From NCBI GenBank assembly GCA_914767715.1, contig OU612072.1, forward strand, positions 22,942,001-23,006,000: DNA of 64,000 nucleotides, given 5' to 3'. The first letter of the stretch is position 1; every line of letters starts with the position of its first letter. Shown here piece after piece: positions 17,589 through 61,056 of the stretch. The translations under genes and the position numbers were made by a program. The notes beneath the pieces are model-generated. The model had not been told where the DNA came from. It was given only the letters and a program-made list of their open reading frames with translations, and searched no databases. This stretch comes from Membranipora membranacea. Its lineage: Eukaryota; Bryozoa; Gymnolaemata; Cheilostomatida; Membraniporidae.

Positions 17589-17589
17589 T

Positions 17590-22063: not shown

Positions 22064-22084
22064 TCTGCCTTACATCTTAATCAT

Positions 22085-22175
22085 GGAGTCAGGAGTTGTC
22101 TGATGGTTAAGGGTAAGGACTTGTGATCTTGTGATCCAGTTTCGATTTCTGGCGCCTGTCATCATTTCTGATTCG
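22085..22175 (+). mobile_element. tRNA-derived SINE-like fragment
   Basis: GTCTGATGGTTAAGGG resembles an A box, and GTTTCGATTTC about 40 bp later resembles a B box, followed by an acceptor-like segment. It is too degenerate to be a working tRNA gene. Confidence 0.4.
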
Positions 22176-28450: not shown

Positions 28451-28683
28451 TTCTTGTGAACCCTCTATGTTGAAGTGTTAATCTGTAACAGGGGAGATAA
28501 CATACTCTAGACCCTTTTAGACCCAGGGTTTTTGCATTTTAAGTTAGGTTACATTATTCAATAATGTCCTTCTGTGAAAAAAAATTCTTTTTTTGTGCAT
28601 TGCTATGACAAAGCTTCAAAATGAACAGTTGTAGTTTTTTGCTTTCCTAAAAACTTTAATGAACCTTTTTATTTCTTTTACAG

Positions 28684-28761
28684 CTTGTTCAGTTACTTAC
28701 ACCTTACAACCACCTATCATGGAGCAGAATAGAGGAAACGTAAAGGTCGGCACAGAGAAAA
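28684..28761 (+). CDS. LRR gene exon 1 (start codon at 28,719)
   Basis: Acceptor TTTCTTTTACAG precedes 28,684 and donor AAAA/GTGAGT follows 28,761. The ATG at 28,719 opens 14 codons and ends phase 1, matching exon 2. The frame is also open upstream to the acceptor, so the start could lie in an earlier exon. Confidence 0.65.
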
Positions 28762-31700: not shown

Positions 31701-34700
31701 TAATTTCTAATGCAATTGACATAATTAATGTAAGTGTATCTGTATTGGTATGCTTTAGATTATCGGAGATGACATCACTGAAGCATCTATTTGTTGCCTG
31801 GTGTAGAGGTGATGAGCTGAATCTGTGTCTATCCACACTGACAGATCTGGTATCTCTGAGTCTGTTGCACTGTAATCTGACTAAGATACCTGAGAGGTAA
31901 ATAGTTCATAACAATATAAATACAAGCTGAGTGTAGGATTAACACCTCACTTCATTATAATATATAACAAGTGTTTAATATAATACAGAAAATCTATATC
32001 CTGCTATAAACCTAACGATTAAGCCTGACATCTACTGTGCTATGTATGTTGTCTTTATTATGTATATAGTATTATCAATAATATCATTATCCTGTTCGTA
32101 TAAAGCTAATGGTATAACATACTATAGTAATTATTACAATTTGAAATTATCTGAGCAGCACAGATAATTGTCCGTCATTGTATGATTACTATACGCCCGT
32201 TATCAGTAAGGTAAGCGATAGTTCTGAGTTTTGGTTTAAATACATATTTTTCATAATTTATGTAGTACCATCATCAGGGTAAAGATTTATTAATATTTGA
32301 GCTGGTTATTATTTGTAATAGATATATATATATATATTTATTTAGTGAGGTAATTAAAAATGATCAAATATTGATTTTACAAAGTTGATAACCCAATGGT
32401 GAAGTAGTTACAGTATAGGCACCTCACCAGGTACATTAGGGACAAGCAGCATTAATGTAGTGATATTCTAAGGTTTAAACCTACTGTAGGTGGTTCAAAC
32501 TAACGGGAAAAGTTTTTATTTGTCAGACTTTCAGTTTGATCTTATTGTGATCACTAATTCCGGTTTTATAGCATATGCATTTACCCTACTTGATCAATAT
32601 ACACAATATATGCGGTGATCAAAATTCAGGATGCTCACAGTATTATTAAAAAGTATACATGTAAGAATCTGTTCGCAGAGAAAAACTTATTTAGTAATTT
32701 AATGTAATTTCATGTTGATACATCATTAAAATTTGCAAAAAAATCAAACATTACAGCCTATATTTTTTTATAAACAACCGATTTGTGTATTTTTGTTGTC
32801 GAGACAGCCAAAGCACCTTATTTAACTCTGTAAGACGAATTACCAAGTTAGGTCCATTCGCCTGATTTAGAATTGCTCCCCATGCGAGAAAACTGAAATT
32901 GCAAGCGGGCAGAATGGATCAAACTTGAACTTAGAATACACTGCATTTTAGGAAGATCCCATGATGAAAGAAATCAAAGTGACTCTGGGCTGATAGAAAA
33001 ATAATTGTATCAAACTGGGAATAATGTGAAAATCATATTTCTTTGTCTGCAGCATCGCTAAGATCACAGCATTGAAGCAGCTAGAAATAGGTTGTATTGA
33101 TCTCAGCAGAGATGATCAGCTGGGTCAGACATTGTCAAAACTCACTAATCTGGAGATGCTGGACCTGAGTAGATGTAAGCTGACTAAAATACCTGAAAGG
33201 TAAGGAAACCTCTAGATCAGTACATCAGTTATTCATCTTTATCTGATTTTTGTCAGTATTGAGATCATGGCATATGAAAGATATTCTTTATAGAAACGCA
33301 AAATCTCACATTTGGCACAGGAAATATGTGTAAAAATGTTAAATAGAATGGGAGTTGTCTGAAACCGTCAAATAATTCCATTCAGCTCTCCTATTTTGAC
33401 AACAGTTCATGCATCACAATTGAAAAGCCATTCTTAGGGTTGTGTGAAATATTTAGTCTTGTGTTGCTACTCATTAAGTCTTTGGCAATGCACACTAATA
33501 TGCAACAAGTTTTTGCATTACTCTGCGGTGAAATCTATAAAGGCTATACAAAATCAACTGTCTCTGGTTGGTTAAATGGTTAAATCACTGACATCGCCTG
33601 AACAGCAAAACACTACTTGGCCTTGTTTTTTTGTGTTGATACATCACGCAATTTTCTAAAAAAAAATCAAGACAAGACTGCACTTTTAAGATTTCCTGGG
33701 CAGTATTGGTTTGATAAAATCTAAGTAATAACTATTGCTGCATTACACATAAAGGATATAACCAAAGTTGTCCTTCGAAAAGTGCGACAACGTATTATCA
33801 ATGATGCTATGGTCTAAACAAACTGACAGAGGTTGCAACCTCAGAGGAGCCTCTAAGAGTTTGTATATACTCATTAACCCTCCAGGGATCAGCTGGCCGA
33901 GAACCGAACCCTGGGGAGCACCGATCATGACAGGCAGTAAACCGACTTAATTCATTTACCAATAAAAACTGTTTTCTATTTAAAAGATAATTTTCTAACA
34001 GTCGCTATGAGGGGGATAATATCTGAAAAAATATCTGTTTACTTATTAGAACGATTAGAAGATTTATTGTATCAAAAACTTTTGAAAGATATAAAATTAA
34101 ACCCTGGGTGATTCTTCCATCAATAAAATGGCCGTAAAGTTGTTCCATTATAATGTTGATTTTTGCTTATTTTGTGAAGTTTAGTACCCTCTTTGGTGAG
34201 TGTAAATAACTGCTTAGTCATCCAAGGTTTCTTGATAGTAGGACGTTGTTGCTTTCTGGCACTAATTTTGTTGCTGGCATTATCAATGCATGAGCTTGGT
34301 TTTCCATTGAAAGATGGTGTCAGATATTTCTGTAACAATTTTGTTATTGTATAATTTCTTATAATAACACATTAATTTATTTTAGTTGTGTTCATCCGTA
34401 AGGAATTATCGATCTGAAATGTTTAAATCTAAGGTGCACATTTTTATGTTCGGAATTAATAATAGTAATAGATAATATAAAATAATTATGTTGGTTTCAC
34501 AAATTCTGGTTCGGTATCTAATAAGAATATAAAAATATTGGCTTCAACTCAACTTGCTTTAGTCTTTTGAAGCTAAGTCAAAATTTTTTTCTGGACTCAA
34601 ATCAATGTTGATGTCACCAACAATAAGGCAGTTTGTGGGGAGCTAAATCCTCCAAAAAGCTGCCAAAGAGCCCAAGGGTGCCGGTAGACAGCGAGCACAG

Positions 34701-37700
34701 CGCACGCATCTCGTGAAAACTCACCATCTGCACGCGTAACGCCTCATTGAAGAACTTAAGTTTTATTTGAGCCTATTTTCTCTGCTACAACAATGTAAAG
34801 ATTATTTTGTACTCAGGTAGGGTTGGTCTGTATATGTGGTTTGTTTTATTTTTGAATAAATTTGTAAGTTACACTTCATGCGTATCACTACCCACTGATC
34901 CCATTTTCTCTTTTGCTGCAAATACCATTTGCTATTTATATAACATGGCAAGACAAAATCATTGCACCACCAACACAGCAGACGGATGGTTCACAAACAT
35001 GCCTTTAGTTGATATTTGCGCTAAGCAAAGCTCCAAAAAATTGCATCTTTGCAAGTCTAAAAGAAGGTGGAAGATCAATATCAATATTTTTCACATCATT
35101 TATGTGTGAGAAGTATATAGTTCTTATGTGCAATTTATTTGGTAACTGGTAAGTGATAAATGACCAAGTTTACTGCTGTGCCGTCTTCACCTATCTCTCT
35201 GCAAACCTCACACCATGTGGAAAATTCTATCATTCGATTATAGTGGATCAATGTAATACATTGCAACACAGAGATTGTGAAGTGCCTTCTATACTAATCA
35301 TTCCATCTTCATGCCATTACCATTTCGCTCACTCATTATCCTGTCATGGTTGATATGCATACTATGCACCAATCTCTAAGAAAAGAAGTTGTCCACTTAC
35401 CTGACAGTGGAGGATAACTCCTCAGATGAATCAGTTGACCAAACTGTACAATTATCACTTATTTAACTATGCTCTATAGAGTGACATTATCAAGTGTTCA
35501 TGACATAATGTCATATACAGAAGTCTCGATGTGCACCATGCCATGAAAATTTATCTGCACTTGCTATCAAAGTAGTTTGTCTTTTCCTTTCTAACAAAAT
35601 AAAAAAATGGCAGCTCAGTTGAGGCTTTTGCCATCCAACAACCCTGGTGGAAGGAAAATGCACTTTCAGGGTTTTTCATACACTGAGAGGAGCGACACAA
35701 ACATATCAATTTTTAGGCTTTGCTCAGAAAGAGTGAACTTTGGATGTAAAGGGACGCTAAGGACAAACAAAGACCTCACAAATCCCCAGGTATATATTAT
35801 ATGTGTGTACATCGTATGTATTGCATACTATTACTTTTGTCTGAAAGCACAATATGTATTGCTGTATGTGCTGTGCTGCATCATGCCACAGGTTAGCTTT
35901 GAGAAATAAGGATAACTTGTGACAGAATTTGCGGCTAAGTTGTGACCAAGCTGGCTGTGTTTCAAACAAACAATCTCATAGATATCTTTGGATATGACAT
36001 AGTAGATCCTGAGAAAGCCACAATTTTACCGAACTGAATTGTAGTGATTGGCTTGATTCTCTCTTGAAAAACTCAATATGGTTACTGGGGTGAAACCTTC
36101 GAGGGACATATTTTTTCTCCCCATGTGATTTTTCCGTGTCCAATAATTTTCACTTTGTTACAGCCGCTTATCCCACACATCATGATGCTGACGACCGCAA
36201 GATTGATGTCGATCTGGGAAGGACAGAGTTGAAGCGAAGGGCCGCTGATACCAGAGATAAGCCGGGGACAATCAGAACCATTGTACTACAAGACATGCCT
36301 GATGCCAGTAAAACTGTAAGCTCATTCAAACTAATCTTCTCCTGCAAATTTAGGATCTGACTGAATAAATAAATAGTGGCGATAATTCATAGGGCTCAGA
36401 TATTTCATGTTGTGAGAAGGATTACAAGGTGGCTCAGTCGGAAAAATCATTGGTTGTGAATGTCTGTGTCACAGGCGGTGCATCAACCTGTCTGCAAATG
36501 CCAAGTGTGCACAGATTGTACTGTCTCACCATCGAGTCTCCAAGAATTATAAATCAATGAAAATGTTTTCAGATGTCAATTGCCTTCTAACAAATCCACA
36601 TGAGGTTACAAATATATTGTACGTTGTATACCTTAGGATACAATACATGAGAATGCTTACGCAAAACAGTTAGATTCTATACCCACCTGTATCCAAGCCA
36701 TACACCTGGAAAAATGAATGGAGGATAACTATCAGCCTCACTTTGAAACTGTGTTTTTTTCGAAATATCTAAGGTCTATCAGTTTTGTGAGGGAAAAATT
36801 AAAAAGAAGCCCGACTCCTAACCAATACACCACCCTGCTACCTGAGCTTTCAATATGTCAATATGAAGTATACTGTTGTATTTTTTTATCATTATTATTA
36901 CAGTTATTGTTTTATTAATTGTTTTTCCTCATTTTTTTCAGGAATTCGTTTCCAACAACGCCTAAAGGAAGACAGTACAGAGAGCTAGAGCTCTGCAGCT
37001 TCAACCACTCCCCCAAGATATGGAGGTTATTGAAATCCCACACATTTTACGGCAGACAATTGGTGATGTACCGTTGCCATTCTTGCTGCATGATAATAGG
37101 ACATAGGGAAGGCGGCTTATTATATTTGCTTCTCGACAATGTTTGCAGCAGCTCAGTGAGGCAAGTTCATGGTAAGTGTTTGCAGTTAAAGTTAAAGGCA
37201 TTGACCTATATTAATCGTGTCTGATTAATTGAACATTAGATCTACAGTGTCAGAATTAAGCCAAAACTGTAATGCTGGAGATGTTATTCCAAAATCGATT
37301 ATCAGCCTGTGCGATTTGGCTTTGCATCAATAACTGCATCAATAGACGGAGTAGGTGCTTTTTAAGGTTATTTTGCACGCTATCAGAGATTCACAGCTTG
37401 TAAAAGTAGGCTTTCAATTATTTCTACCCAATATATTCAATAGCATTTTCTTAAATATGAATTGTAATTTTAGGTTCATGGATGGAAATTTTGGAATGCC
37501 ACCCCACATTTAACCAACATATGTTATGTATGATAACTTGTTCACCAACTAACTCTGACTAATTTCAACCTTGTTTGATGATTTTTCTATTTTCTATATT
37601 TCATTGGTCTCCTTATTTCAGAGTACGTGGCGGCATGTACAAATGATAAATGGACTGGTTCAACAGTATATGGCATATGAAGAAGTCAAGCTCTTCGTGG

Positions 37701-43700: not shown

Positions 43701-46700
43701 CTCAAAGTATCAGCAACAAACAATTTAAATTTAATGAAAGATTTCATATCCATACCTCATCATCCTCATTTTGAATCACTCAGATCTTTTCCAAACTTTT
43801 CAATCTTTTGACCTATCAGAACTTCTCACAAGCCCATGTGATGGTGAGAGCTTCCCTCTCCACCATCCTATAGCCCATCTCAGTTTCAGTCATCTTAGGG
43901 GAGACATACTCTACTGGTTGCCAGATATATTCACCAGATTCCTGGAGTAACACAGCACCAAGTGCAAGCTACTGGCATCGGCTGACACACTACGTATTTT
44001 AGACATATCAAACGCACACAACAAGGAAACTGACAGTAGTGGTTACAAACTCGCATTTGTCTTTTCTCAAGTTCAAACCAACATGATTACATATATCTAA
44101 GATTAATTCCAGTCTATCCCAATGAGTTGCCTCATCCTTAGCATAGATCAAAATGTCATTCATAAGACATATAACTCCTTGAAGGCCATTTAAGATCTTA
44201 TCCATGCAACGCTTGAAAAACTCTGTGGCAGAGGATATTCCACATTTTGGAGCAATAAATTATTTCCCACCTTTGTAGGGTCCTCTCATTGCTTAGCATC
44301 GGAACATTTAATGGCTTGTGAATAACTTACAGGTTCTACTATTTACTAAACTACCAGTAAGCATGCTCTACTTCTATATTAGTATACTTATCACTGCCAA
44401 ACCTGACTGGAGGTTGACGCACACAAGAGTCACCCTGTTCACTCACAGGTGGGTTGCTACGACTCCCACTATCATCTATAACATCAGGTTGTTTATCAGG
44501 GTCAGGAATCATCACCTCATTGTCACACTACTCAGCACTCTCTTTAGTTGGCACACATGGTAAGCCATCCCTTGCTCATCCCAATATATCCTACAAAAAC
44601 CAACCTCTCAGCCCTATCATCAAGCTTACTATGAAGCTGAGGCGGCACATGACTAAGCACAGTTGCGCCAAACACTCAAATATGACTCACATTTGGCTTG
44701 TGTTTGTTATATAACTCATATGTAGTCGTCCCCACTTTAGATATTGGTGGGCAGTCTATTCCTGAAGTGAGCAGCTTTGGCTGCAGCTTCAGTCCAAAAG
44801 CGCTTAGGCATACCTGACTGTAGTACCATGGCGCGCGTTGACTCGACTATGGTACGATTGTACCGCTCTGCAACACTATTTTGCTCAGGTGTGTACCGCA
44901 CAGTAAGCTGGTTTTGTATGCCTCGACCAGAGATATAGCGCTCAAAATCTGTCCCTACATACTCCTCACCATTATCACTACATAGTGAAAAAATATTGAG
45001 CCATTCTCGCAGATAAAATGCACTTGGGCAAATCTAGAATAGTCATCGATAAATGTCAAACAATAAATCCTCATAATCCTCATTCACCAATAAAAGCCAT
45101 TTATAAATATAATCCAGAGGGAACGCTGGATTTCATCTTACACCACAACCCGACAAAGCATATTGGTAGGGTATTTACCAACAGGCGTGGAACAATTGAT
45201 GAAGAGCTTAGCAGTCTTCATTGTTGATGGGCACTCATCTAATATGCTTGGGGGATTTCCTTACAAAATTGCTGACATGTGGGTTTATATAAGATAAATT
45301 TAAACTCTGTATAAATTGATGGAAGCCAGACAAACTGTAAGATTAAATCAGATTAAGCTACATTTGGCTATGTGGGGATTGAAGGCCTTTATTGCAAATG
45401 TTACACATTTTTGTTTTTATTAACAGCATGCTGAGTCAGGTGTTTTTAGAGTTGTCATTTCATTTTTGACTCAGATATATCTGATGAGACAGGTACTAGA
45501 TAAATAATGAATCAATTTCCCTTAAACTGTATGACACTTGAATGTTTCATCTACCTGTAACTTAATTTACAACTTAATGTTTCGTTTCCTGCAAGTTATT
45601 TTATGTCTGCTTAATAACAACAGATGATAAACCCTTATTTAACTCTGTAAGACGAATTACCAAGTTAGGTCCATTCGCCTGATTTAGACTTGCTCTCCAT
45701 GCGAGAAAACTGAAAATGCAAGCGGGCAGAATGGATCAAACTTGAACTTAGAATACACTGCATTTTAGGAAGATCCCATGATGAAAATAATCAAAGTGAC
45801 TCTGGGCTGATAGAAAAATAATTGTATCAAACTGGGAATAACGTGAAAATCATATTTCTTTGTCTGCAGCATCGCTAAGATGACAGCATTGAAGCGGCTA
45901 GGCATAGGTGGTACTGATCTCAGTGGAGATGATCAGCTGGGTCAGACATTGTCAACACTCACTAATCTGGAGATACTGCACCTGAGCAACTGTCAGCTGA
46001 CTAAAATACCTGAAAGGTAAGGAAACCTGTAGATCAGTACATCAGTTATTCATCTTTATCTGATTTTTGTCAGTATTGATATCATGGCATATGAAAGATA
46101 TTCTTTATAGAAACGCAAAATCCCACATTTGGCAACAGGAAATGTATGTAAAAATGTTAAATAGAATGGGAGTTGTCCGAAACCGTCAAATAATTCCATT
46201 CAGCTCTCCTATTTCGACAACAGTTCAAGCATCACAATTGAAAAGTCATTCTTAGGTTTGTGTGAAATATTTAGGCTTTGTTGCTACTCATTAAGTCTTT
46301 GGCAATGCACATGAATATGCAACAAGTTTTTGCATTACTCTGCGATGAAATCTATAAATGCTATAAAAAATTAACTGTCTCTGGTTGATTAAATGGTTAA
46401 AACACTGACATCGCCTGAACAGCAAACACTACTTGGCCTTGTATTTTGTGTTGATACACCACGCAAGTTTCTAAAAAAAAATCAAAACATCACATCCTTA
46501 CTTATTTCTAATCAATTTTTTGATTTATTTTTGTTGACAAGACTGCACCAGCAACTTATTTTAGCTTTTTAAGATTTCCTGGGCAGTATTGGTTTGATAA
46601 AATCTAAGTAATGTCTTTTGCTGCTTTGCACATAAAGGTTATAACCAAAATTGTCCTTGAGAATGCGACAACGTATTATCAATGATGCTATGGTCTAAAC

Positions 46701-49700
46701 ATACTGACAGAGGTTGCCACCTCAGAGGATCCTCTAAAGAGCTTGTATATACGCATTAATCCTCCGAGGATCAGCTGAGGCATATATGTTATTAATGTGA
46801 CATCATGCAAACCATATGCACTCTGAGGTTGCAACTGATGATCGAATCTCTTAGGGTTAGCTGAGGCTGCTGTATGCTCACTGAGAGGAATCCGGAAGCG
46901 GGTTTAACTTCGGGTATTATTTAGCAGTGCCCTTATTTGGTTAGTCAGAATACCCAAAATGCCCTTACTTTTTGAAGAAGTCAAACGAGTCCCTCTCTGT
47001 GTTGCTCTATTACACATTACTATACATTAAAACATTTCGACAATACTGTAATTTTGATAATGAAAATTGACTTGGTCACCCCAACCTTTCAAAATAACCA
47101 GGTGACAAGAGCAGTTTTTACAATATTGCTGGTTTTGGACCCTGCCACTGGTTAAATGAGCTATGTGGCCATGTCAAGTTGTCATTAGATTTCTTTGAAT
47201 TAAGCAAGGAATGCTTGCCAGGAGTGACCGCACTAACCACTTGGGTGACTGACTGAGGCCGCAAAGCAACATCAGGGCAATCCTCCTACTCAGCAGTAGA
47301 GGACAACTTCTGGTGCTCATAATGAACAGAATACTAGTCCCCTCTTCTGCATCACTTACATTCATAGCCTCCATAATCAGACTTGCTTCACTAACATCAC
47401 TAGCTTGTGATGCAGCAGTCCGACGGTACCCGGCCCTAATGCCATGGCCTAAATGCCATTGGGACAAAATGCTATTGCCATTATGCCATTGTCATAATGC
47501 CATGGCCATAATGCCATAGGTGAAAACACCACTGCACAATATACCAATGCCAAAATACCAGTTGTACAAAATGCCTCATTGAAGAACTTAAGTTTTATTT
47601 GAGCCTATTTTCTCTGCTACAACAATGCAAAGATTATCTTGTACTCAGGTAGGGTTGGTCTGTATATGTGGTTTGTTTTATTTTTGAATAAATTTGTAAG
47701 TTACACTTCATGCGTATCACTACCCTCTGATCCCATTTTCTCTTTTGCTGCACATACCATTTGCTATTTATATAACATGGCAAGACAAAATCATTGCACC
47801 ACCAACACAGCAGACGGATGGTTCACAAGCATGCCTTTAGTTGATATTTGCGCTAAGCAAAGCTCCAAAAAATTGCATCTTTGCAAGTCTAAAAGAAGGT
47901 GGAAGATCAATATCATTATTTTTCACATCATTTATGTGTGAGAAGTATATAGTTATTATGTGCAATGTATTTGTTAACTGGTAAGTGATAAATGACCAAG
48001 TTTACTGCTGTGCCGTCTTCACCTATCTCTCTGCAAACCTCACACCATGTGATAAATTCTATCATTCGATTATAGTGGATCAATGTAATACATTGCAACA
48101 CAGAGATTGTGAAGTGCCTTCTATACTAATCATTCCATCTTCATGCCATTACCATTTCGCTCACTCATTATTCTGTCATGGTGGATATGCATACTCTGCA
48201 CCAATCTCTAAGAAAAGAAGTTGTCCACTTACCTGACAGTGGAGGATAACTCCTCAAATGAATCAGTTGACCAAACTGTACAATTATCACTCATTTAACT
48301 ATGCTTTATATAGTGACATTATCAAGTGTTCATGACATAATGTCATATACAGAAGTCTGGATGTGCACCATGCCATGAAAATTTATCTGCACTTGCTTTG
48401 ATAGTTCTATCAAAGTAGTTTGTCTTTTCATTTCTAACAAAATAAAAAAAATGGCAGCTCAGTTGAGGCTTTTGCCATCCAACAAGCCTGGTAGGAGGAA
48501 AATGCACTTTCAGGGTTTTTCATACACTGAGAGGAGCGACACAAACATATCAATTTTTTGGGTTTGCTCAGAAAGAGTGAAGTTTGGATGTAAAGGGACG
48601 CTAAGGACAAACAAAGACCTCACAAATCCCCAGGTATATATTATATGTGTGTACATTGTATGTATTGCATACTATTACTTTTGTCTGAAAGCACAATATG
48701 TATTGCTGTATGTGCTGTGCTGCATCATGCCACAGGTTAGCTTTGAGAAAGAAGGATAACTTGTGACAGACTTTGCGGCTATGTTGTGACCAAGCTGGCT
48801 GTGTTTCAAACAAACAATCTCATAGATATGTTTTGATGTGACATAGTGATCCTGAGAAATCCTCAAATTTACCGAACTGAATTGTAGTGATTGGCTTGAT
48901 TCTCTCTTGAAAAACTCAATATGGTTACTCAATATGAAACCTTCGAGGGACATATTTTTTCTCCCCATGTGATTTTTCCGTGTCCAATAATTTTCACTTT
49001 GTTACAGCCGCGTATCCCACACACTCATGATGCTGACGACCGCAAGATTGATGTCGATCTGGGAAGGACAGAGTTGAAGCGAAGGGCCGCTGATACCAGA
49101 GATAAGCCGGGGACAATCAGAACCATTGTACTACAAGACATGCCTGATGCCAGTAAAACTGTAAGCTCATTCCAACTTATCTTCTCTTGCACATTTAGGA
49201 TCTGACTGAATAAATGAATAGTGGCGATAATTCATAGGGCTCAGATATTTCATGTTATCCGAAGGATTACAAGGTGGCTCAGTCGGAAAAATCATTGGTT
49301 GTTAATGTCTGTGTCACAGGCGGTGCATCAACCTGTCTGCAAATACCAAGTGTGCATAGATCGTACTGTCTCACCATCGAGTCTCCAAGAATTATAAATC
49401 AATGAAAATGTTTTCAGATGTCAATTGCCTTCTAACAAATCCACATGAGGTTACAAATATATTGTACGATACCTTAGGATACAATACATGAGAATGCTTA
49501 CGCAAAACAGTTAGATTCTATACCCACCTGTATCCAAGCCATACACCTGGAAAAATGAATGGAGGATAACTATCAGCCTCACTTTAAAACTGTGTTTTTT
49601 CGAAATATCTAAGGTCTATCATTTTTGTGAGGGAAAAATTAAAACGAAGCCCGACTCCTAACCAATACACCACCCTGCTACCCGAGCTTTCAATATGTCA

Positions 49701-52700
49701 ATATGAAGGATACTGTTGTATTTTTTTATTATTATTATTACAGTTATTGTTTTATTAATTGTTTTTCCTCATTTTTTTCAGGAATTTGTTTCCAACAACG
49801 CCTCAAGGAAGACGGTACAGTGAGCTAGAGCTCTGCAGCTTCCATCGCTCCCCAAAAATATGGAGGTTATTGAAATCCCATACATTTTACGGCAGACAAT
49901 TGGTGATGTACCGTTGCCATTCTTGCTGCATGATAATAGGACACAGGGAAGGCGGCTTATTATATTTGCTTCTCGACAATGTTTGCAGCAGCTCAGTGAG
50001 GCAAGGTCATGGTAAGTGTTTGCAGTTAAAGTTAAAGGCATTGACCTATATTAATCATGTCTGAATAATTGAACATTAGATCTACAGTGTCAGCATTAAG
50101 CCAAAACTGTAATGCTTTCCTCCAAACAAGTGGAATATGCATGAGATAAGAGTGAATGATTATGTTATTCCAAAATCGATTATCAGCCTGAGTGATTTGG
50201 CTTTGCATCAATAACTGCATCAATAGACGGAGTAGGTGTTTTTTAAGGTTATTTTGCACGCTATCAGAGATTCACAGCTTGTAAGAGTAGGCTTTCAGTT
50301 ATTTCTACCCAATATATTCAATAGCAGTGTATGACCTACCACGGACAAACAACTATTGCGAGTCCTGGAATAGTAGGTGAGAAACGAAGCATAAACAATA
50401 CATCATCTGTGACAGTTTGTAACTTGTAGAACAAATAATGTGTCAGCCAAAACCATATTGACTCATAAAGGACGATTTCGAAGTGAATTTTATGCAGAGA
50501 ACTAAAAAAAGCTGTTATCTTGAAACGCTTGCACAGAAGCTTAGTTAATGTTCATCCGGGTTGTAGTATATTTTCGGATTTGATCGTTACGAATTGGCAA
50601 ATTGATATTTATTTGACCTATTTATTGAAATACTTAACTAGAATATAATCCTTGGCACTTTCAGAATGAAGAAGCTCAAGGGAACAGACCATCCAACTCT
50701 GTGGGATCTTCTCAAAACCCTAAGAGAAGAGGACATGGTGGCCAGACTCGATATTGACAATACAGCCCTCAGCAACCCTCCAAAGAAGGTTGTCAAACGG
50801 GTATATCGAGAACTAACAACCAGGCTCAAGGAACTGTGAAGGCAGTACGATGCAGGAGATGTCAATATGGAGGTCTTTCTCCGCCTAATAGGATACAACA
50901 TTTGGTGGAAAGCACCAGCCCACCATATTGAGCATTGACGAGTTAATAGCTTGACTACTTTTGTACTACTACATTCCACTTGTAAATTTATTTGATTACA
51001 TTTTAGGAGTTGTCTCATTTGATAAAAGTAACAGACAACTCCCATTTTGGTAATAAACTGTTTAAATATATAACCCTAACAATATATATCTCAACCTACT
51101 CTGAAAGCTTTGAATGACTGATCCTCGTCAAACACCCAAGAGTCCCAATACAAAGATAAATAATAACAATAGGGTAGGGGCCATTTGGTGCACACCAAAA
51201 GCAGATGATAACGAAGTTTATCTAATGCGAAAAACATTTTCCTTTTCCCTTAAACTATAAAGTGTACATATGGCAACGGATTTATAAATAATAACCACAT
51301 ACATGACAATATTGCTGTTGAATATCTTCTCTTTAAAATCTATTGAAATGTATTAACACAATTGGTATCGACAGCAGTATCCTTGTGTCACAAATAATAC
51401 ATCAAACTTTATGTCATCCAATGGATGTTCACAGGCGATATTTGCTAATTATACATAAATGTGAGATGATTGTGGTCAAACAGTGTTCTTGATTCTCCTA
51501 AATTTGTCAGAAGAACTATTTCACATGGACACATCTGTTCTCTGCTCTTTTTAAAATGCATGGTCGGCAGTTCCATTCCCAGATGCATAAAATACTCTTT
51601 ACTTTATCGCTCCTGTACCTTGCAATGTAGGTATGCCTCAGGGCAGCGTACTAGGCACGATGTTGTTTAACTATGTGATTGCCTCATTACCTAAGCTCCA
51701 AGATACTATCGGGGCTAAATGCCACTGTATGCTGATGACACTCGGTTCTGGGTGAGTTTCTGTGCACGTGATTTCATCAAAAAATGTGAAAACAGCAATT
51801 GGTCGATAGTCAGGCAAGCTTTCTCCATCATCCCTCCTTCATGATAAATAGCCATTTAAGACTGCGTTATTTAAGACTGAACCCCACAAAAGACACAATT
51901 CACACCATTTCACCCAAGAATCAATGATTTCTAGACGTTTTACAAATTAACTTCATTATTATTATTATTATTGAAGCTTTAATGACCAATGAATATTAGT
52001 TGTGACGCACGGGACTAAAAATTAGTAGTATCACGTTTGAAAAGAATAATTCTGCATAAAATGTGTTGTTGCAGAGTTAACACTTCCAATGAGCACAAGC
52101 AGGCTCAATCCCATCATAAAACATGTTTGAATAGTTTCTGTTCTCCACTGAAAATCAAATGTGAAATCAAACAGAAAAAAGTGGGATGCTTGATCAAGGA
52201 GTTAGAGACAACTCCTTGGCATGGCTAATGTATAATTTAGTATCCTGTGTGACTTTGCTGAAAACTATGGCCATGGCCTAACCGTGAAAGCTCATTTTGG
52301 GTGAAAAGAGTTTTTCCTTCCTGTTAGTTGTAACTGTAACTTTTTATAGAACTAATAAATACAGAGATAACCTGCTCTATGTTCAATCATCGTAGTCTTA
52401 TCAATGTAATTAGTAAGCATGAGTCTCTAGAGCTGCGATGAGTCAAGACTTGGCTTTCAAAAAAAAGTTGGTAATAATTCAAAGTTATTGTCATATTATT
52501 CTAAAGAATGGTTGGGAAATATTTGTAACAAGTCACTAGCTCTCAGTTTGTGGATCCCAACAAACCCCAGATATCATGGAAATTGAACGAAGAAACTTCG
52601 AGACTTGCTCAGTGAAAGAGATGGCTCTAACCAACTGAACCAGCCCCTACTCTGATCAGGCAACCCGCAGCTGTAAAGTGACTAAAAAAAAAAACAATGT

Positions 52701-55700
52701 GGCTTGATCTCCTTTGGTTATATATTATGGCATTTTGACAATGGTATTTTGGGATATGGTATGTTGTCCCGCATGGTATTATGTCCAATCTGGCTTTATA
52801 TCCACTGGTATTTTGACACATCTGGCTTTATATCCACTGGTATTTTGACACAACTGGCGTTTTGTACAACTAGTATTTTGGCATTGGTATATAGTGCAGT
52901 GGTATTTTCACCTATGGCATTATGGCCATGGCATTATGACAATGGCATTATGGCAATGGCACTTTGTCCCAATGGCGTTTTGGCCATGGCATTTTGACAC
53001 GGAATCCAATCCGACCTAACAACCCAGAAGAGGACCCTGAGGCAGTGACTGGAGGTCAGTCACACACCCCAGACCCAGGAGTTGATGTGTTGTTGTCACA
53101 GCGAAGGTGTTATTAGCTAGACTGGCAACAGATACTTAATTCACAGCGATTGTACCAACAGTAACAGCCACAGCATTAGTATGGGCACACCACTGACTGG
53201 GACAAGAGTTGATACTTCTTGCAGCTTTAAGATGAAGAAAAGGAGGAGCTGGATCGAGTCGGCCCTTGTATAACTAAATGATAAGCTGTCCCTTCTGTTA
53301 TCCCAGATGAGTCAAAGTCATTGTCTGCCCTCAAGTGGATGTGTCCATTCCAGCAAAAAAATTGTGGTTAACTGATACTGGGAGCGAACCAAGTCTTTGT
53401 GAAAGCAAATACACAGCAATCGTGAAACATTAAAAATGATCAATAATTTTGAAAAAAGATCTGGCATTATATAGTAGGATAGTAGATACAAGTTATCTAA
53501 TCATTCCTTCCAATTTTTGCTCTTCGAGTTTTTTTTGACACCAGCCCCTCTTGCTAGAGCTGCCAAAACTCCAAAGCTATGACCAATCCTCACTTCCCTC
53601 TGCTGAAAGTCAGATCATTTATGACCTCACAGAGTGGCCTGGGGCCCTATTCCTGGCACTCATAGCATGCAAATTTCTCACCCTTGATGGTCTGCCGACA
53701 TTCATTCCTCACAGCGCCAGATGTTCTTTTCTCTCTGCTTCTCCTTGTCAGCATTTGGCTTGCGTTCTGGAACCACCTCTACAGGCTCAGTAAGTAAGAA
53801 GTCGGTTCCAGGAAGATTGAACTTCATTGAGTTAAAATCTGAAATAAAAGATTACAATGATTGACCATACACAAAGCTTGCCTATGTTTTTGCCAAAAAT
53901 ACCACTACAATGAATGTTTCCGATTACGTCTAACGACAGAAGGACCAACTTGCACCAAGTAGACTTGTGGGGTGGTGTCAGCTTTAACTAAAACCCCTTC
54001 ACGACCCGGATCAGACTTAAACCCAAACTCGCTGATTGGGCTTTAAAGGATATAAAAACTCAGCAAGAAATTTCTCATTCCATTTTTTCTCCCTCGACTC
54101 ACATTGTAGCCTTCGACCTCTTCATACAAATTATTATTGACCAAGAGTACTCTATTTAACTTAATGGAGACCCTAAAATTCGACCAAACCTCAATTCACC
54201 AAGTGTAAACACAGGATTCAGAGGAGGGTTTCAATGTGACGTCAATAATAATGTTCGCTACATTTTCCAACCAATCTCTCGACAACACCTACAGATCTTT
54301 CAGCTAAACCGTTAGATTAGAACTACTGGTTGCATGACTTAAGCGATAGTCACTTGCAAACTGTCGGAATTCAGCACTTCAATACCCCGGAATATTGTCA
54401 TCTATAACATCAGGTTGTTTATCAGGGTCAGGAATCATCACCTCATTGTCACACTACTCAGCACTCTCTTTAGTTGGCACACATGGTAAGCCAACCCTTG
54501 CTCATCCCAATATATCCTACAAAAACCAATCTCTCAGCCCTATCATCAAGCTTACTATGAAGCTGAGGCGGCACATGACTAAGCACAGTTGCGCCAAACA
54601 CTCTAATATGACTCACATTTGGCTTGTGTTTGTTATATAACTCATATGTAGTCGTCCCCACTTTAGATATTGGTGGGCAGTCTATTCCTGATGTGAGCAG
54701 CTTTTGCTGCAGCTTCAGTCCAAAAGCGCCTAGGCATACCTGACTGTAGTACCATGGCGCGCGTTGACTCGACTATGGTACGATTGTACCGCTCTGCAAC
54801 ACTATTTTGCTCAGGTGTGTACCGCACAGTAAGCTGGTCTTGTATGCCTCGACCAGAGATATAGCCCTCAAAATCTGTCCCTACATACTCCTCACCCTTA
54901 TCACTACATAGTGAAACAGTATTGAGCCATTCTCGCATTTGCAAATGCACTTGGGCAAATCTAGAATAGTCATCGATAAATGTCAAACAATAAATCCTCA
55001 TAATCCTCATTAACCAATAAAAGCCATTTATAAATATAATCCAGAGGGAACGCTGGATTTCTTCTTACACCACAACCCGACAAAGCATATTGGTAGGGTA
55101 TTTACCAACAGGCGTGGAACAATTGATGAAGAGCTTAGCAGTCTTCATTGTTGATGGGCACTCATCTAATATGTTTGGGGGATTTCCTTACAAACTTGCT
55201 GACATGTGGGTATATATAAGATAACTTTGAACTGATATAAATTGATGGAAGCCAGACAAACTGTAAGATTAAATCAGATTAAGCTACATTTGGCTATGTG
55301 GGGATTGAAGGCCTTTATTGCAAATGTTACACATTTTTGTTTTTATTAACAGCATGCTGAGTCAGGTGTTTTTAGAGTTGTCATTTCATTTTTGACTCAG
55401 ATATTCTGATGAGACAGGTACTAGATAAATAATGAATCAATTTCCCTTCAACTGTATGACACTTGAATGTTTCATCTACCTGTAACTTAATTTAGAACTT
55501 AATGTTTCGTTTCCTGCAAGATATTTTACTTCGGCCTAATAACAACAAATGATAAAGAGTTTTTAATAGCACTAAATGTCAGTAAAGAGAAAGAGTAAAG
55601 GGCAAACCATCACAGTCATGACTTTTAGAAAAAAAGGATACAAATTCACTACGATGCAGAGAGGGTTAGGGGGAGAAAATAGATGCCATAGACAAGTTGT

Positions 55701-58700: not shown

Positions 58701-61056
58701 GTTGAGGTGAGATTCTGCTAGCAAAGCTGAATTGATTTGATTAAAGGCACAGTGCGCGTTTGTATCGCGTTTCAGGCACCGATATTACAGAGGATATCGC
58801 CTGACAGCTCAAATCAGGTGACCTTTCTATTGCAAAGGCTTCAATCTGTTGAAATCCGCCATCAACCAGCAAGTTGTGGACTCAATTGGTCTGAAAGGGC
58901 ATCTGCAAAGTATGACTTTTTGAGGTAATTTTAGCGTTTTGTTTTGGAATTGTCACCATATGTGGAATTATCCTCTCTTTCCCTATTTGCCTATTTCCTA
59001 ACTACATCACCGATGTCTTGGTGTCAGTTTTATTATATGTCTGTTATGTACATGTTACAATTGACTTTTATTTTTGTGGGTTGGCATGCCCTAACCAGTT
59101 CTTGATTGTTAATTAACTGTTTCATGTTAACACAATCTTTCACTTCGGCAATCATCAAAATCATATCCGTCAAACTCAATTGTCATGATACACCATCACT
59201 AGCTGCTACACACTATGACATGTGCAAATGATTATGAAGTAGGTTTACTAGCCATAGTAGTGTGTAGCAGCTAGTGATGGCGTAGAATAGCAATTGAATT
59301 TGACGATGTGATTTTGATGATTGCCGACAGTGAAAGATTGTGTTAACATGAAACAGTTAATTAATAATAATCAATAAATGGTTAGCGCATGCGCAACCAA
59401 CAAAGCTAAAAGTTAATTGAAACATATACATACCAGACATATAATAGAACTGACACCAAGACATCGGTTATGTAGTTAGGAAATAGTCAAATAGGGAAAG
59501 AGAGCATAATTCCACATATAGTGACAATTCCAAAACAAACGGCTAAAATTACCTCAAAAAGATGGTTAAACCAGTGTACAGACAGCACCTGAACAGCAAA
59601 ACATTACTTGACAATGTTTGTTGCGTTGATACATCATCCAAATTTGCAAAAAGATCAAATCATCACAGCCTTAATTTATTTCTAAAAGATTGTATCATGT
59701 ATTTTTGTTGTCTAGACAGCCAAAGCCCCTTATTTTACTCTGTAAGACGAATAACCAAGTTTGGTCCATCTGCCCACATTAAGTGTTGCTCCCCTATGGG
59801 TGCAAATTGAATACAAGGGAAAAATGCATCAAACTTGATATAAGAGTACACTGCATTTTAGGAAGTCCCTGTTAGGTGAAGAAATCAAAGTTTCCCTGGG
59901 ATTTCCAAAAAATATTTGTATAAAACTGGGAATAATGTAAACATTATATTTGTTTGTCTGCAGCATCTCTAAGATAACATCGCTGAAGCAGCTGAACTTA
60001 CACGGTAACAATCTAAGTAGAGGTGATAAGCTGGGTCAGTCATTGTCAGAATTTACTAATCTGGAGATACTGAAACTGGGGAGCTGTCAGCTGAACAAGA
60101 TACCTGACAGGTAACGACACCCATTGACCGAAGCCTCAGTATATTATTATCTTTATCCTACTGTTGTCATCGGTGAGGTTTATGCCTTGTGAAAGATAAT
60201 CTTCATTAAGATATAAAAAACCCACAATATCTCAGAATGTTAAATTGGGTGGGAGTCGTCCCATCACTGAAACTGTCAAATGATTTCTCAAGGCGAAGTA
60301 GTCATGCGTTTAATTGCCTGACAGATAAAAAGTGTTTCTAAATGTTTGTCTCAGACAGTCATCATACGCTGAGAAATATTTATGTTTTTGTTGCCCCTGT
60401 TTTAGTGTTGGGTAGTGAACGCTTATATGCACAGTTTTTTGCATTGCTAAGTTGAGAAACCTAAAGTAGCTATACAACATTTCTGTCTCTGGTTGATAAA
60501 ATGGTTTAACCAGTGTACGGATAGCAGCTGAAAAGAAGAATATTACTTATTGTGTCCTTGTTTTTCGTGTTGATACATCATCAAAATTTGCCAAAAATCA
60601 AAACATTACAGCCTTTATTTTTTTGTAAACAACCGATTTGTGTATTTTTGTTGTCGTGACAGCCAAAGCCCCTCATTTAACTCTGCAAGACGAATTACCA
60701 AGTTAGGTCCATTTGCCTGATTTAGAATTGCTCCCAATGGGAGAAAACTGAAAATGCAAACGGGCAGAATGGATCAAACTTGAACTTAGGATACACTGCA
60801 TTTTAGGAAGATCCCTTGATGAAAAAAATCAAAGTGACTCTGGGCTGATAGAAAAATAATTGCATAAAACTGGGAATAATGTGAATATCATTTATTTCTT
60901 TGTCTGCAGCATCGCTAAGATTACAGCATTGAAGCAGCTATACCTAGGTGATAATGATCTCAGTAGAGATGATCAGCTGGATCAGACATTGTCAACACTC
61001 ACTAATCTGGAGATACTGGACCTGAGTAACTGTCAGCTGACTAAAATACCTGAAAG
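28719..61056 (+). CDS. leucine-rich-repeat protein with tandemly amplified LRR exons (5' part of gene)
   Basis: Seven exons join in frame: 28719-28761, 31280-31535, 31759-31896, 33053-33199, 45870-46016, 59964-60110 and 60910-61056. The first supplies the ATG (MEQNRGNVKVGTEK), the second about 85 residues of no recognised fold, and the rest LRRs. The last four exons are paralogues of exactly 147 bp, all phase 2-2, each with about two LRRs (ITALKQL..., LTNLEILDLSNCQLTKIPER). No signal peptide, transmembrane segment, NACHT, TIR or death domain is visible, but the gene runs past the window end and a 5' exon may be missing. The protein is probably intracellular as far as seen. LRR arrays of this type bind proteins; an immune-recognition role is an inference from their variation. 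Introns of 12.7 and 13.9 kb are swollen by transposons. Confidence 0.8.
29333..30617. repeat. 1.28-kb foldback element in LRR-gene intron 1
   Basis: Arms 29,333-29,822 and 30,111-30,617 are inverted copies of about 500 bp around a 290-bp spacer. Outer ends read GCTATCATAGACAAAACACA and, inverted, GCTACCATAGACAAAACACA. Arms contain CACCTGGGGGTTTGAGGGCA. No ORF with a transposase motif is present. It lies in the sense-transcribed intron, so an RNA hairpin is possible. Confidence 0.88.
30618..31279. other. LRR-gene intron 1, remainder
   Basis: The open frame 30,662-30,862 has no splice context or motif. Nothing else was recognised. Confidence 0.4.
31280..31535 (+). CDS. LRR gene exon 2 (N-terminal domain of unknown family)
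   Basis: The exon is 256 nt, phase 1-2, with acceptor TTATTACAG and donor GAG/GTTAGT. It encodes YNVAWVEQGDSNWDDPRVRG followed by QTWERLISSERKLTIVELE and ends SVIYLWLQQIPGSSLKSLR, which already has LRR-like hydrophobic spacing. The first about 60 residues match no family I recognise. An LRR capping region is one reading. Confidence 0.75.
31759..31896 (+). CDS. LRR gene exon 3
   Basis: The exon is 138 nt, phase 2-2, with acceptor TGCTTTAG and donor GAG/GTAAAT. It encodes LSEMTSLKHLFVAWCRGDEL then LTDLVSLSLLHCNLTKIPER. It is a diverged relative of the 147-bp cassettes, three codons shorter. Confidence 0.85.
31897..32714. other. LRR-gene intron 3, upstream part
   Basis: AT-rich, with a TA microsatellite at about 32,321-32,340. 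No element recognised. Confidence 0.45.
33053..33199 (+). CDS. LRR cassette exon 1 of 4
   Basis: The exon is 147 nt, phase 2-2, between TTTGTCTGCAG and GTAAGG. Its two repeats are ITALKQLEIGCIDLS and LTNLEMLDLSRCKLTKIPER. Flanking intron sequence (about 340 bp upstream, about 700 bp downstream) is shared with cassettes 2 and 4. Confidence 0.9.
33895..34739 (-). mobile_element. LINE fragment replacing the left end of MULE copy 1
   Basis: On the minus strand, near 34,640-34,580, an endonuclease motif reads NCLIVGDINIDLS. At 34,338-34,120 the endonuclease-RT linker reads RPTIKKPWMTKQLF, and at 33,928-33,880 the RT motif GAPQGSVLG is seen. Large parts between are deleted. Its edges coincide with loss of homology to blocks 2 and 3. 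Confidence 0.75.
35607..38966 (+). pseudogene. MULE transposase with FLYWCH zinc finger, copy 1
   Basis: The exons are 35607-35789 (FLYWCH start: KMHFQGFSYTERS, then GCKGTL), 36164-36315 (His pair of FLYWCH and linker), 36942-37171 (MULE N-terminal region: IEIPHILRQTIGD, RRLIIFASRQCLQQL), 37622 to about 37799 (GLVQQY...LAFLPENDVV), 38224-38422 (LLDYFDTNYVCG, RFPPSKWNMHEI, LPRTNNSCESWN) and 38711-38966 (DHPTLWDLLKTLREE, FLRRIGHNI). These are family signatures of FLYWCH-MULE transposases. Defects are a 1-bp deletion in exon 2, two stops in exon 3, and absence of the exons that should hold the DDE core after 37,171. Confidence 0.88.
36425..36545 (+). mobile_element. SINE-like insertion inside a MULE intron
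   Basis: TGGCTCAGTCGG fits the pol III A-box consensus. It is present in MULE copies 1 and 2 (second at about 49,270-49,390), so it predates their duplication. Confidence 0.4.
39612..39740 (+). mobile_element. reverse-transcriptase fragment (LINE), block 1
   Basis: VGMPQGSVLGMMLFN followed by SLPKLL and a degenerate metal-binding motif region matches the RT core of non-LTR elements. It is shared with block 2 at 51,627-51,755. Confidence 0.7.
40225..40930. other. ~0.7-kb segment present only in block 1
   Basis: Block 2 passes directly from TATCCTGTG to GACTTTGCTG. ATCCTGT occurs at both ends of the block 1 segment, so a microhomology deletion in block 2 is the simplest reading. No recognised content. 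Confidence 0.6.
41220..41335 (-). mobile_element. tRNA-derived SINE-like sequence, block 1
   Basis: On the minus strand GGGGCTGGTTCAGTTGGTTA followed by GAGCC resembles the 5' half of a tRNA, with a weak B box about 45 bp on. Also present in block 2 at about 52,542-52,657. Confidence 0.5.
41392..41675. repeat. right terminal region of MULE copy 1, repeat-built
   Basis: Made of variants of ATGGCATTTTGACA and ATGGTATTTTG. The outer ~140 bp (41,536-41,675) is the reverse complement of the left terminal region of copies 2 and 3. Confidence 0.85.
41676..42480. other. ~0.8-kb segment between MULE right end and gypsy remnant
   Basis: Short open pieces (for example plus-strand NNPEEDPEAVTGGQ near 41,700) look like a fragment of a protein gene, but none is identifiable. 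It is base-for-base identical to block 2 up to 42,434. Confidence 0.5.
42480..44300 (-). mobile_element. Ty3/gypsy retrotransposon remnant, block 1
   Basis: On the minus strand, 44,205-44,008 is the RT segment (MDKILNGLQGV, then NDILIYAKDE and LNLRKDKCEF; the usual DD is ND). Bases 43,548-43,400 hold the integrase His-Cys zinc motif (ERAHAGYQGT ... CNACIRD). Bases 43,174-42,986 hold core integrase (GAFKRVFSTLGVARNL, EFRQFASDYGL), and the integrase C-terminal end lies near 42,700-42,600 (YLVQVGPSVVRR). RNase H and part of RT are missing and frames are broken. No LTRs were recognised. Confidence 0.82.
43566..43650. repeat. 85-bp inverted repeat within the gypsy remnant
   Basis: Arms of about 37 bp (CGTATCTTGGCGAACCTTCG outward) flank a short loop. 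A small foldback insertion upstream of the integrase segment. Confidence 0.75.
44466..45062 (-). mobile_element. Ty1/copia integrase remnant, block 1
   Basis: The minus strand holds SDNGEEYVGTDFE, QLTVRYTPEQNSVAERYN and FWTEAAAKAA, typical copia integrase core, followed by HKPNVSHIRVFGATV and RAERLVFVGY. The segment between the first and second catalytic Asp is shortened. It ends within 30 bp of an unexplained plus-strand open frame. Confidence 0.82.
45090..45227 (+). other. unidentified open fragment next to copia remnant
   Basis: The plus-strand frame reads YNPEGTLDF, HNPTKHIGRVFTNRRGTIDE and ends ELSSLHC before a stop. It is preserved in block 2 (about 55,029-55,156). It resembles a real protein C-terminus preceded by an AG acceptor-like site, but no family is recognised. 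Confidence 0.3.
45870..46016 (+). CDS. LRR cassette exon 2 of 4
   Basis: The exon is 147 nt, phase 2-2, with the same splice sites as cassette 1. The repeats are MTALKRLGIGGTDLS and LTNLEILHLSNCQLTKIPER. By eye it differs from cassette 1 at 15 of 147 bases, of which 13 change the amino acid. Confidence 0.9.
47171..47330. other. ~160-bp segment present only in block 2
   Basis: Block 3 goes directly from GAGCTA to GTCCCC where block 2 has about 160 extra bases. Insertion in block 2 or deletion in block 3 cannot be distinguished. No target duplication is clear. Confidence 0.5.
48451..50839 (+). pseudogene. MULE transposase with FLYWCH zinc finger, copy 2
   Basis: The exons are 48451-48633, 49008-49160 (intact here: PHTHDADDRKIDVDLG completes FLYWCH), 49782-50011 (in-frame TGA near its start), then a scrambled region, and the last exon from 50,665 with a stop at 50,837. 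The WN..RTNN exon is split: a ~47-bp copy of its first part lies at about 50,116-50,162, and the RTNNYCESWNS part sits at about 50,333-50,377, with intron sequence between. About 0.9 kb equivalent to 37,447-38,370 of copy 1 is deleted. Confidence 0.85.
51627..51755 (+). mobile_element. reverse-transcriptase fragment (LINE), block 2
   Basis: Same MPQGSVLG core as the block 1 copy at 39,612, with minor substitutions. Confidence 0.7.
52542..52657 (-). mobile_element. tRNA-derived SINE-like sequence, block 2
   Basis: Block 2 copy of the element at 41,220-41,335, with the same tRNA-like head. Confidence 0.5.
53800..54390 (-). mobile_element. Ty3/gypsy remnant, block 2 (truncated)
   Basis: It retains only the integrase C-terminal part and the start of the integrase core. 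At 54,395 it joins directly to the copia remnant: about 1.39 kb present in block 1 (43,080-44,470) is deleted, with TCAT shared at the breakpoint. Confidence 0.8.
54395..55015 (-). mobile_element. Ty1/copia integrase remnant, block 2
   Basis: The minus strand has FIDDYSRFAQVHL, SDKGEEYVGTDFE, NSVAERYNRTIVE and FWTEAAAKAAHIRN in one open frame to 54,663, then HIRVFGATVLSHV and LVFVGY. The conserved SDNG is SDKG here, and the stretch between the catalytic Asp residues is too short for an active enzyme. Confidence 0.85.
55554..56340. other. unique sequence after block 2, no gene recognised
   Basis: No repeat or coding signal recognised in this part of the LRR-gene intron. Confidence 0.45.
56341..57000 (+). 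mobile_element. 3' end of a LINE (RT C-terminal region) with AATC-repeat tail
   Basis: The plus strand encodes LRFEAHIQNVVRKTNQRM, then MYCLPVLYPAIYQQDKKD up to a stop at about 56,860, typical of the region after the RT core in CR1/Jockey-like LINEs. One in-frame stop precedes 56,530. An AATC repeat near 56,976-56,992 is consistent with a LINE 3' microsatellite tail. The 5' part is truncated. Confidence 0.75.
57367..58437 (+). mobile_element. hAT-superfamily element with 8-bp target-site duplications
   Basis: The 15-bp terminal inverted repeats CATACCTGTCAAGTA (57,375-57,389) and TACTTGACAGGTATG type (ending 58,429) are flanked by identical TCTGTGTA at 57,367-57,374 and 58,430-58,437. An 8-bp duplication is the hallmark of hAT transposition. 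The element itself is 1,055 bp, too short for a full transposase, so it is non-autonomous or internally deleted. Its right part has GC-rich hairpins (for example AGGACGC/GCGTCCT). Confidence 0.88.
57720..58157 (+). pseudogene. BED/hAT-like zinc-finger fragment inside the hAT element
   Basis: A 145-codon open frame from ATG 57,720 (a second ATG at codon 15 is also possible). Residues C57 and C60 (FTCTICKKDL) and H77 and H83 (DVTKHQATKGHSE) form a C2H2 finger of the BED-like type found at the N-terminus of many hAT transposases and domesticated relatives. No catalytic DDE or dimerisation domain follows. The last about 20 residues become hydrophobic and unlike a transposase, probably read into non-coding element sequence. 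Confidence 0.7.
58916..59561. repeat. 646-bp foldback element
   Basis: Ends CTTTTTGAGGTAATTTTAGC and its inverse are perfect. Arms of about 300 bp are highly similar inverted copies around a ~35-bp spacer, with a few small indels. No ORF. It lies just upstream of the intron module of LRR cassette 3. Confidence 0.9.
59570..59963 (+). repeat. intron module preceding LRR cassette 3
   Basis: Shares TTGATACATCATC, then GACAGCCAAAGCCCCTTATT and CTGCATTTTAGGAAG with the introns upstream of cassettes 1, 2 and 4, but with more substitutions. This shows all four cassettes share one ancestral exon-intron unit. Confidence 0.8.
59964..60110 (+). CDS. LRR cassette exon 3 of 4 (most diverged)
   Basis: The exon is 147 nt, phase 2-2, between TTTGTCTGCAG and CAG/GTAACG. 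The repeats are ITSLKQLNLHGNNLS and FTNLEILKLGSCQLNKIPDR. Its introns are recognisably related to the other cassettes but clearly older, and no MULE follows it directly. Confidence 0.88.
60910..61056 (+). CDS. LRR cassette exon 4 of 4 (in window)
   Basis: The exon is 147 nt, phase 2-2, between TTTGTCTGCAG and GTAAGG. The repeats are ITALKQLYLGDNDLS and LTNLEILDLSNCQLTKIPER. Its downstream intron runs into a third MULE copy. Confidence 0.9.

Follow-up and report, generated by a model that had tools for sequence, protein, structure and literature searches.

Brown algal LRR-ROCO genes were reportedly the subject of an earlier study by Zambounis in 2012. In the accessible part of a later paper, these genes are described as having shuffled LRR exons of one length and in phase 2, with sites under positive selection on the concave face of the LRRs, and they are proposed to be immune receptors; LRR-ROC-COR is reported there as the only structure, and splice-variant data exist (PMC11378527). 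In Tetrahymena, LRR genes contain arrays of 90-bp phase-2 exons, with ectopic recombination and transposons near the repeats, and the phrase "positive selection" does not occur in the text as retrieved (PMC6564038, in part).

In animals, the Roco proteins MFHAS1, LRRK1/2, and DAPK1 possess Roc followed by COR, with LRRs in front in two of the three groups. The retrieved part of a review lists three Roco topologies, none with a caspase, and four genes in vertebrates, and the word "caspase" is absent from that text (PMC6337361). In the mollusc Aplysia, TIR-ROCO combines Roc-COR with an immune-signalling domain (PMC9334734, in part). In human NLRs, frame-preserving repeated LRR exons permit alternative splicing, for example in NLRP3 (PMC6642158, in part). 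Among the matches listed in a literature search, no title or abstract start described an LRR-Roc-COR-caspase family, with the caveat that this is not proof of absence.

The DNA analysed here (the window) is a stretch of 64,000 nucleotides from the bryozoan Membranipora membranacea, located at C8:22942001-23006000 of a 339-Mb assembly with 18 contigs. It contains four paralogous LRR exons, referred to as cassettes. Judged from sequence, each encodes two LRRs, and they probably (about 0.78) belong to a single gene of an expanded LRR-Roc-COR-caspase family whose contact surface diversifies rapidly; the window appears to hold the sensor half of that gene. The exons are as follows.

31280..31535, + strand: exon A, a cap preceding the LRRs, phase 1 in and phase 2 out; AG..GT and frame were read directly
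31759..31896, + strand: exon B, the first LRR exon, 138 bp, phase 2-2
33053..33199, + strand: LRR cassette 1, two LRRs, 49 codons, phase 2-2
45870..46016, + strand: LRR cassette 2
59964..60110, + strand: LRR cassette 3, an older copy with flanks 20-35% diverged
60910..61056, + strand: LRR cassette 4

The first-pass annotation had described four open 147-bp LRR exons in phase 2-2, all correctly spliced. The four exons were found as described, each flanked by AG and GT, and correct splicing is likewise predicted here. Cassette 3 is the older neighbour of cassette 4, and the two are 946 bp apart. Exon A matched no Pfam family and its region gave no match in a protein search. It has eight paralogues (69-76% identity) in the other loci sampled, where the counterparts of exon B are 132 to 141 bp long.

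Downstream of the window, an open frame of 732 codons is found at C8:23020825-23023020. It contains the next predicted exon of the gene.

C8:23021010-23022961: Roc-COR exon, 1,952 bp, joining the cassette 4 donor in frame

Read from its predicted acceptor, this exon starts with LRRs that continue the solenoid, followed by Roc and COR-B. The Roc part contains the P-loop GRKEAGKS; it scored 28.3 bits with PF01926, above the cut-off of 21.9, and 26.9 bits with PF08477 (E 6.1e-6), just under the cut-off of 27. COR-B (PF25497) directly follows Roc with 28.3 bits (E 1.8e-6), above the cut-off of 27, and COR-A was not significant in this exon (E 0.071). Both features of Roco membership, Roc with a P-loop and COR after Roc, are therefore present in it. 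Caspase exons lie about 0.6-1.1 kb past the Roc-COR donor. The peptide joined from these exon pieces matches the caspase family PF00656 (E 2.6e-20), and its SHGDDG and QSCSGG align in register with SHG and QACRG of a caspase-6 chain, so the catalytic His and Cys are kept. A caspase (peptidase C14) fold with both catalytic residues is predicted.

The gene model from cassette 4 through the Roc-COR exon and a linker to the caspase has 892 codons and no stop, with GT-AG at all four joins and matching phases of 2, 1, 0, and 0. The Roc-COR exon is entered in phase 2, the same as the cassettes, and its L023/L031 paralogue can be entered in this phase too.

A genome search with Roc-COR gave 77 rows (61 of 241 candidates scored), which were collapsed by reading to at least 61 loci, and the caspase search gave at least 150 matches (150 of 206 candidates scored). 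Among the matches listed, 56 of the 61 Roc-COR loci have a caspase within 6 kb. Either side was searched, and all 56 caspases are downstream and on the same strand, at a spacing of 850-2039 bp by listed coordinates (median 1,473). The other five scored loci have no caspase within 6 kb among the matches listed. Of the scored Roc-COR loci, 20 are on C8. Among the matches listed, cassettes precede Roc-COR on its own strand at all 18 of those between 19.9 and 24.3 Mb, and the opposite strand has no cassettes within 60 kb; for the remaining two (18.3 and 18.7 Mb) the list contains no cassettes.

The LRR array, Roc-COR, and caspase could also be separate neighbouring genes travelling together, since the Roc-COR frame reaches a stop about 60 bp beyond the predicted donor, which could end the protein. 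This is unlikely, given joins that all match in splice sites and phase without a stop, an exon that itself begins with LRRs extending the solenoid, and the constant order and strand at 56/56 loci with a caspase and 18/18 loci of the C8 cluster among the matches listed. For the single-gene reading, an open, phase-matched series of predicted exons demonstrably runs from cassette 4 to Roc, COR, linker, and caspase, and the same order recurs at most scored Roc-COR loci.

The listed caspase-exon matches are on C1-C5 and C7-C11, and the listed LRR cassettes are on C8, C2, and C10 only. Roc-COR-caspase loci on C1, C9, and C11 may therefore have other sensors. In protein searches the listed matches are LRR proteins of at most 41% identity, and the best five matches of the longer search carry Roc according to precomputed domains (four of the five were rescanned).

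The cassettes themselves are numerous. The cassette peptide had at least 150 genomic matches (150 of 485 candidates scored), and among those listed 145 are at C8:19.89-24.54 Mb, 2 on C2, and 3 on C10. Array length varies from 2 to 12 cassettes among the matches listed within 60 kb of C8 Roc-COR loci, as anticipated by the first-pass annotation, which had stated that symmetric phase permits exon gain and loss. Spacing is about 970 bp at many loci, near the period of cassettes 3 and 4. Some cassettes have no nearby Roc-COR among the matches listed, e.g. around C8:21.31 and 24.42 Mb. The latter is an array with the following features.

C8:24419598-24429820 (L029/L030): nine 147-bp cassettes, repeating every 1,260 bp or so; 9/11 variable residues at contact positions; no Roc-COR close downstream among the matches listed

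An NLR (NACHT-LRR) identity was rejected, as the LRRs are predicted to lead into Roc-COR and no NACHT was found in the open frames scanned upstream. Human NLRs possess a NACHT ATPase, and in them the caspase is recruited, not fused. RI-type LRRs are 28-29 residues long, and here two LRRs together occupy 49 residues. In 59 open frames (48 at window positions 17989-31006 and 11 upstream of exon A elsewhere) the best Pfam E-value was 0.0099 and neither NACHT nor a death-fold was detected, with the caveat that short or split exons could escape. At three loci an open frame of 98 codons, with 92-94% identity, is found shortly before exon A.

L020 574-867, + strand: 98-codon open frame
L026 7694-7987, - strand: 98-codon open frame
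L027 7534-7827, - strand: 98-codon open frame

None of the three had a convincing Pfam match, and the frame could be an intron repeat or an N-terminal exon.

Three of the window cassettes belong to segmental duplications, identified by blastn self-comparison.

32816..45631, + strand: unit 1, with cassette 1, a FLYWCH/MULE-like element, and retroelement pieces
45632..55556, + strand: unit 2, with cassette 2 and the same kinds of element
60563..64000, + strand: third copy, with cassette 4 and a FLYWCH/MULE-like element, extending past the window
35595-38963, 48379-51075, and 62200-64000: FLYWCH-like + transposase-like element, one per unit (FLYWCH E 0.04-0.08)
43150-44259, 44740-45033, and 54473-55064, - strand: retroelement pieces with integrase zinc-binding and reverse transcriptase matches and a Copia-like integrase

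The first two units measure 12.8 kb (cassette 1) and 9.9 kb (cassette 2), and the unit of cassette 4 is cut by the window end. The transposase-like element is presumably a MULE, and the integrase is taken to be Copia-like. A repeated stretch terminates exactly at the unit junction 45631/45632. Divergence of the aligned blocks is 1.9 to 5.7%. Differences of only about 2-6% are possibly within the allelic range of marine invertebrates, and the three near-identical cassettes could then be an assembly or allele artefact. This is highly improbable: the window sequence contains no N bases, the three copies carry different insertions, and the selection result reported below is obtained without the window.

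Other features lie in the same region. Window positions 1-17621 contain, on the - strand, exons with a proline-rich PPPLPPKRK piece and LKGGSVDALVVYAT. This gene is taken to resemble RAPGEF1/C3G, although the pieces of it that were tested had no Pfam match. Together with the animal-type caspases, this neighbour points to an animal as host. Farther along, some 50-60 kb past the window, L013 6879-7487 and L014 1099-9859 contain long open frames with a weak Pox_A32-type ATPase match, presumably of a large Maverick/Polinton-type element.

Within the window, cassettes 1 and 2 differ at 15/147 exon bases vs 6/233 upstream and 21/447 downstream, with 12.5 replacement and 2.5 silent exon differences by the Nei-Gojobori method. 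Cassettes 1 and 4 differ at 14/147 exon bases (12 replacement, 2 silent). This recount agrees with the earlier hand counts of 15/147 vs about 6/233 upstream and of 14/147 with 12 replacements. Cassettes 2 and 4 differ at 11/147 exon bases, and the excess over the flanks is not significant (p 0.13). When 170 overlapping 147-bp segments were scanned between cassettes 1 and 2, the most divergent one was almost wholly exonic (15 differences; next 13). In the three-way comparison of cassettes 1, 2, and 4, an intron segment close to where the block ends downstream has 22 variable columns vs 19 in the exon.

Likelihood tests of cassettes 1, 2, and 4, with p-values by chi-square approximation, gave omega 2.95 (p 0.087) for the exon alone and 2.9 (p 0.0005) with introns as the neutral reference. 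The latter loses significance without codons 12-16 (p 0.28), and with the far downstream intron as the only reference it is not significant (p 0.096). Twelve exposed codons (9, 10, 12, 14, 15, 17, 35, 36, 38, 40, 41, and 43) were defined from the LxxLxLxxNxL motif. These motif positions are exposed on the concave face of LRR proteins. Omega is 7.2 for the exposed codons and 1.5, not significant, for the other 37. Replacements fall in 7/12 exposed codons vs 6/37 others (p 0.008), consistent with the earlier proposal that they cluster at exposed beta-strand positions. Cassette 3 as a whole has a dN/dS of 0.47-0.78, with dN not greater than dS. Taken by itself, the window gives genuine but slender evidence of selection.

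The analysis was extended to 23 loci outside the window (222 kb) together with the window, where 79 profile matches yielded 73 exons that have both splice sites and a reading frame. The exposed codon set had been fixed before the cassettes outside the window were examined. The 63 cassettes of exactly 147 bp, minus identical copies and three terminal exons, left 57, and 54 of these were covered by 27 disjoint pairs of nearest cassettes, none with more than 30 differences. With rates as uncorrected proportions and with pairs that may share converted segments, pN was 0.201 at exposed codons and 0.035 at the others, and overall pS was 0.069. The first-pass annotation had proposed dN/dS at the exposed positions as the test of its claim. 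Run here beyond the window, it gave exposed replacement at 2.9x the silent rate (p ~1e-16), while the other 37 codons had a pN/pS of 0.51, below silent (p 7e-5).

The window is not needed for this result: 26 pairs from outside it gave ratios of 2.87 (exposed) and 0.48 (other). Leaving out the 24.4-Mb array as well reduced the set to 21 pairs, with ratios of 2.67 and 0.47. Replacements are not spread evenly: the nine fastest codons are all within the exposed 12, with exposed codons 36, 35, and 9 outside the fastest nine. Codon 14 is occupied by 15 different amino acids and codon 41 by 14.

Two further sets add an intron yardstick, although they are not independent of the 27 pairs because the sets overlap. 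The first consists of the nine regularly spaced cassettes among the 11 sampled from the 24.42-Mb array. There, 9/11 variable residues are exposed (p 5e-6), and pN is 0.224 at exposed and 0.011 at other codons, with intron divergence of 0.034. The second is a recent duplication between L019 and L020, a 1:1 block with 98.6% identity across 7.1 kb and five cassettes. Differences between the two copies are found at 10/180 exposed-codon bases, 1/555 bases of other codons, and 76/6381 intron bases (exposed vs intron p 1e-4). The earlier claim that the exon diversifies faster than its own introns therefore holds for the exposed codons but not for whole exons generally, as variable columns in the array number 20/147 in the exon vs 126/974 in the intron (p 0.79) and whole exons of L019/L020 differ at 11/735 bases vs 76/6381 in introns (p 0.48). 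The exon thus combines a slowly evolving scaffold with rapidly changing contact positions.

Instead of selection, the fast appearance of the exons could come from a mutational hot spot or from gene conversion with old cassettes as donors. In this direction point a branch-length pattern of cassettes 1, 2, and 4 that changes within the exon (max chi-square p 0.019), the uneven divergence of the duplication blocks, and silent change in the nine-copy array that is somewhat raised at exposed codons (pS 0.103 vs 0.034 at other codons). Either process would also raise silent change, and across the 27 pairs silent change is not raised at exposed codons (pS 0.072 vs 0.068). The other 37 codons are moreover slower than introns in L019/L020. 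This explanation is therefore disfavoured and considered very unlikely.

Relaxed constraint, with surplus LRR exons drifting toward pseudogenes, is extremely improbable. A few of the at least 150 listed cassette matches do have a stop or a partial sequence, and in the first scan 8/78 matches lacked an intact exon frame as scored, some of them truncated by locus ends. However, the scaffold is constrained below the silent rate, 63/73 framed exons are exactly 147 bp, and loss of constraint cannot push exposed codons above the silent rate, as is observed. The exposed beta-strand positions are thus shown to be under strong diversifying selection, and the scaffold to be constrained. The suggestion of positive selection on a recognition surface is supported beyond the window and at a larger scale than the first-pass annotation had stated; ligand binding by this surface is what we infer.

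The introns were also compared. Two stretches are relevant.

32816..33052, + strand: intron block before cassette 1, also found before cassettes 2, 3, and 4; conserved, with a predicted fold across the 3' splice site
6047-6186: distant copy of part of this block (E 1.7e-5) with an internal inverted repeat

The distant copy is probably a foldback element. In the predicted fold of the four window cassettes, the acceptor is base-paired to an arm lying about 215 nt before it (P 0.92-0.985; 0/100 shuffles each). Paired columns are better conserved between cassette 3 and the other cassettes, and 97% of cells stay paired, with little covariation. A stem P of at least 0.8 was obtained in 9/49 cassettes, the window's four included. 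In the 24.4-Mb array 0/11 reach 0.8 and 10/11 reach 0.5, and at first or terminal LRR exons 0/12 reach 0.8. A structured splice-site lock as a mechanism of the family is rejected on this family test (9/49), and the predicted stem may be relevant in the window gene.

LRR-Roc-COR-caspase proteins are probably sensors that trigger proteolysis or death. The LRR solenoid would bind a varied and changing set of ligands, and binding would switch the Roc-COR GTPase or its dimer. In other Roco proteins, Roc-COR is a nucleotide-dependent switch. The attached caspase domains would be gathered and would cleave either themselves or other proteins, which would start cell death or inflammation-like signalling. 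The LRR partner could also be self or non-immune. Cassette diversity is at least germ-line, through duplication, loss, and mutation of phase-matched exons. Unequal cassette exchange in the germ line, aided by the common phase and flanks, would alter array length and reshuffle variants; within the window, ectopic exchange is weakly indicated by the same max chi-square test (p 0.019). From the phases, a choice among cassettes by splicing is possible.

A more speculative and doubtful extension is that sensor, GTPase switch, and executioner protease on one chain, in at least dozens of copies, draw on a pool of some 150 or more exchangeable two-LRR exons, with splicing as a further means of choosing among them. 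Cells or individuals would then have different detector sets, a cytosolic counterpart of Dscam- or VLR-type repertoires.

If the main reading is true, large germ-line collections of LRR exons under diversifying selection are maintained in animals as well as in plants, algae, and ciliates, and LRR-Roc-COR-caspase is an added topology in the Roco family, which is best known for LRRK2. With sensor and protease seemingly fused, one protein would allow the study of ligand binding, GTPase switching, and caspase firing together, and for ligand searches the residues at the exposed codons are a ready starting list.

Compared with the known systems, as far as the retrieved parts of the sources describe them, this family shares some features with each. 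At least 61 Roc-COR loci were found here vs the vertebrate set of four Roco genes (PMC6337361). Aplysia TIR-ROCO has TIR in place of the caspase and no cassette arrays in the text retrieved (PMC9334734). The frame-preserving repeats are similar to human NLR LRR exons, but the LRR class differs (PMC6642158). As in the LRR genes of the ciliate Tetrahymena, LRR exons of the same length and in phase 2 are very numerous, although the exons there are 90 bp and Roc-COR-caspase is absent from the part retrieved (PMC6564038). Brown algal ROCO genes differ in their exon, which is 72 bp with one LRR vs 147 bp with two LRRs here, and a predicted caspase follows Roc-COR here, where LRR-ROC-COR is the only structure reported for the algae. 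They are nevertheless the nearest parallel, with the same LRR-ROC-COR order, repeated phase-2 exons, and selection on concave-face residues, the positions here being assigned by motif (PMC11378527).
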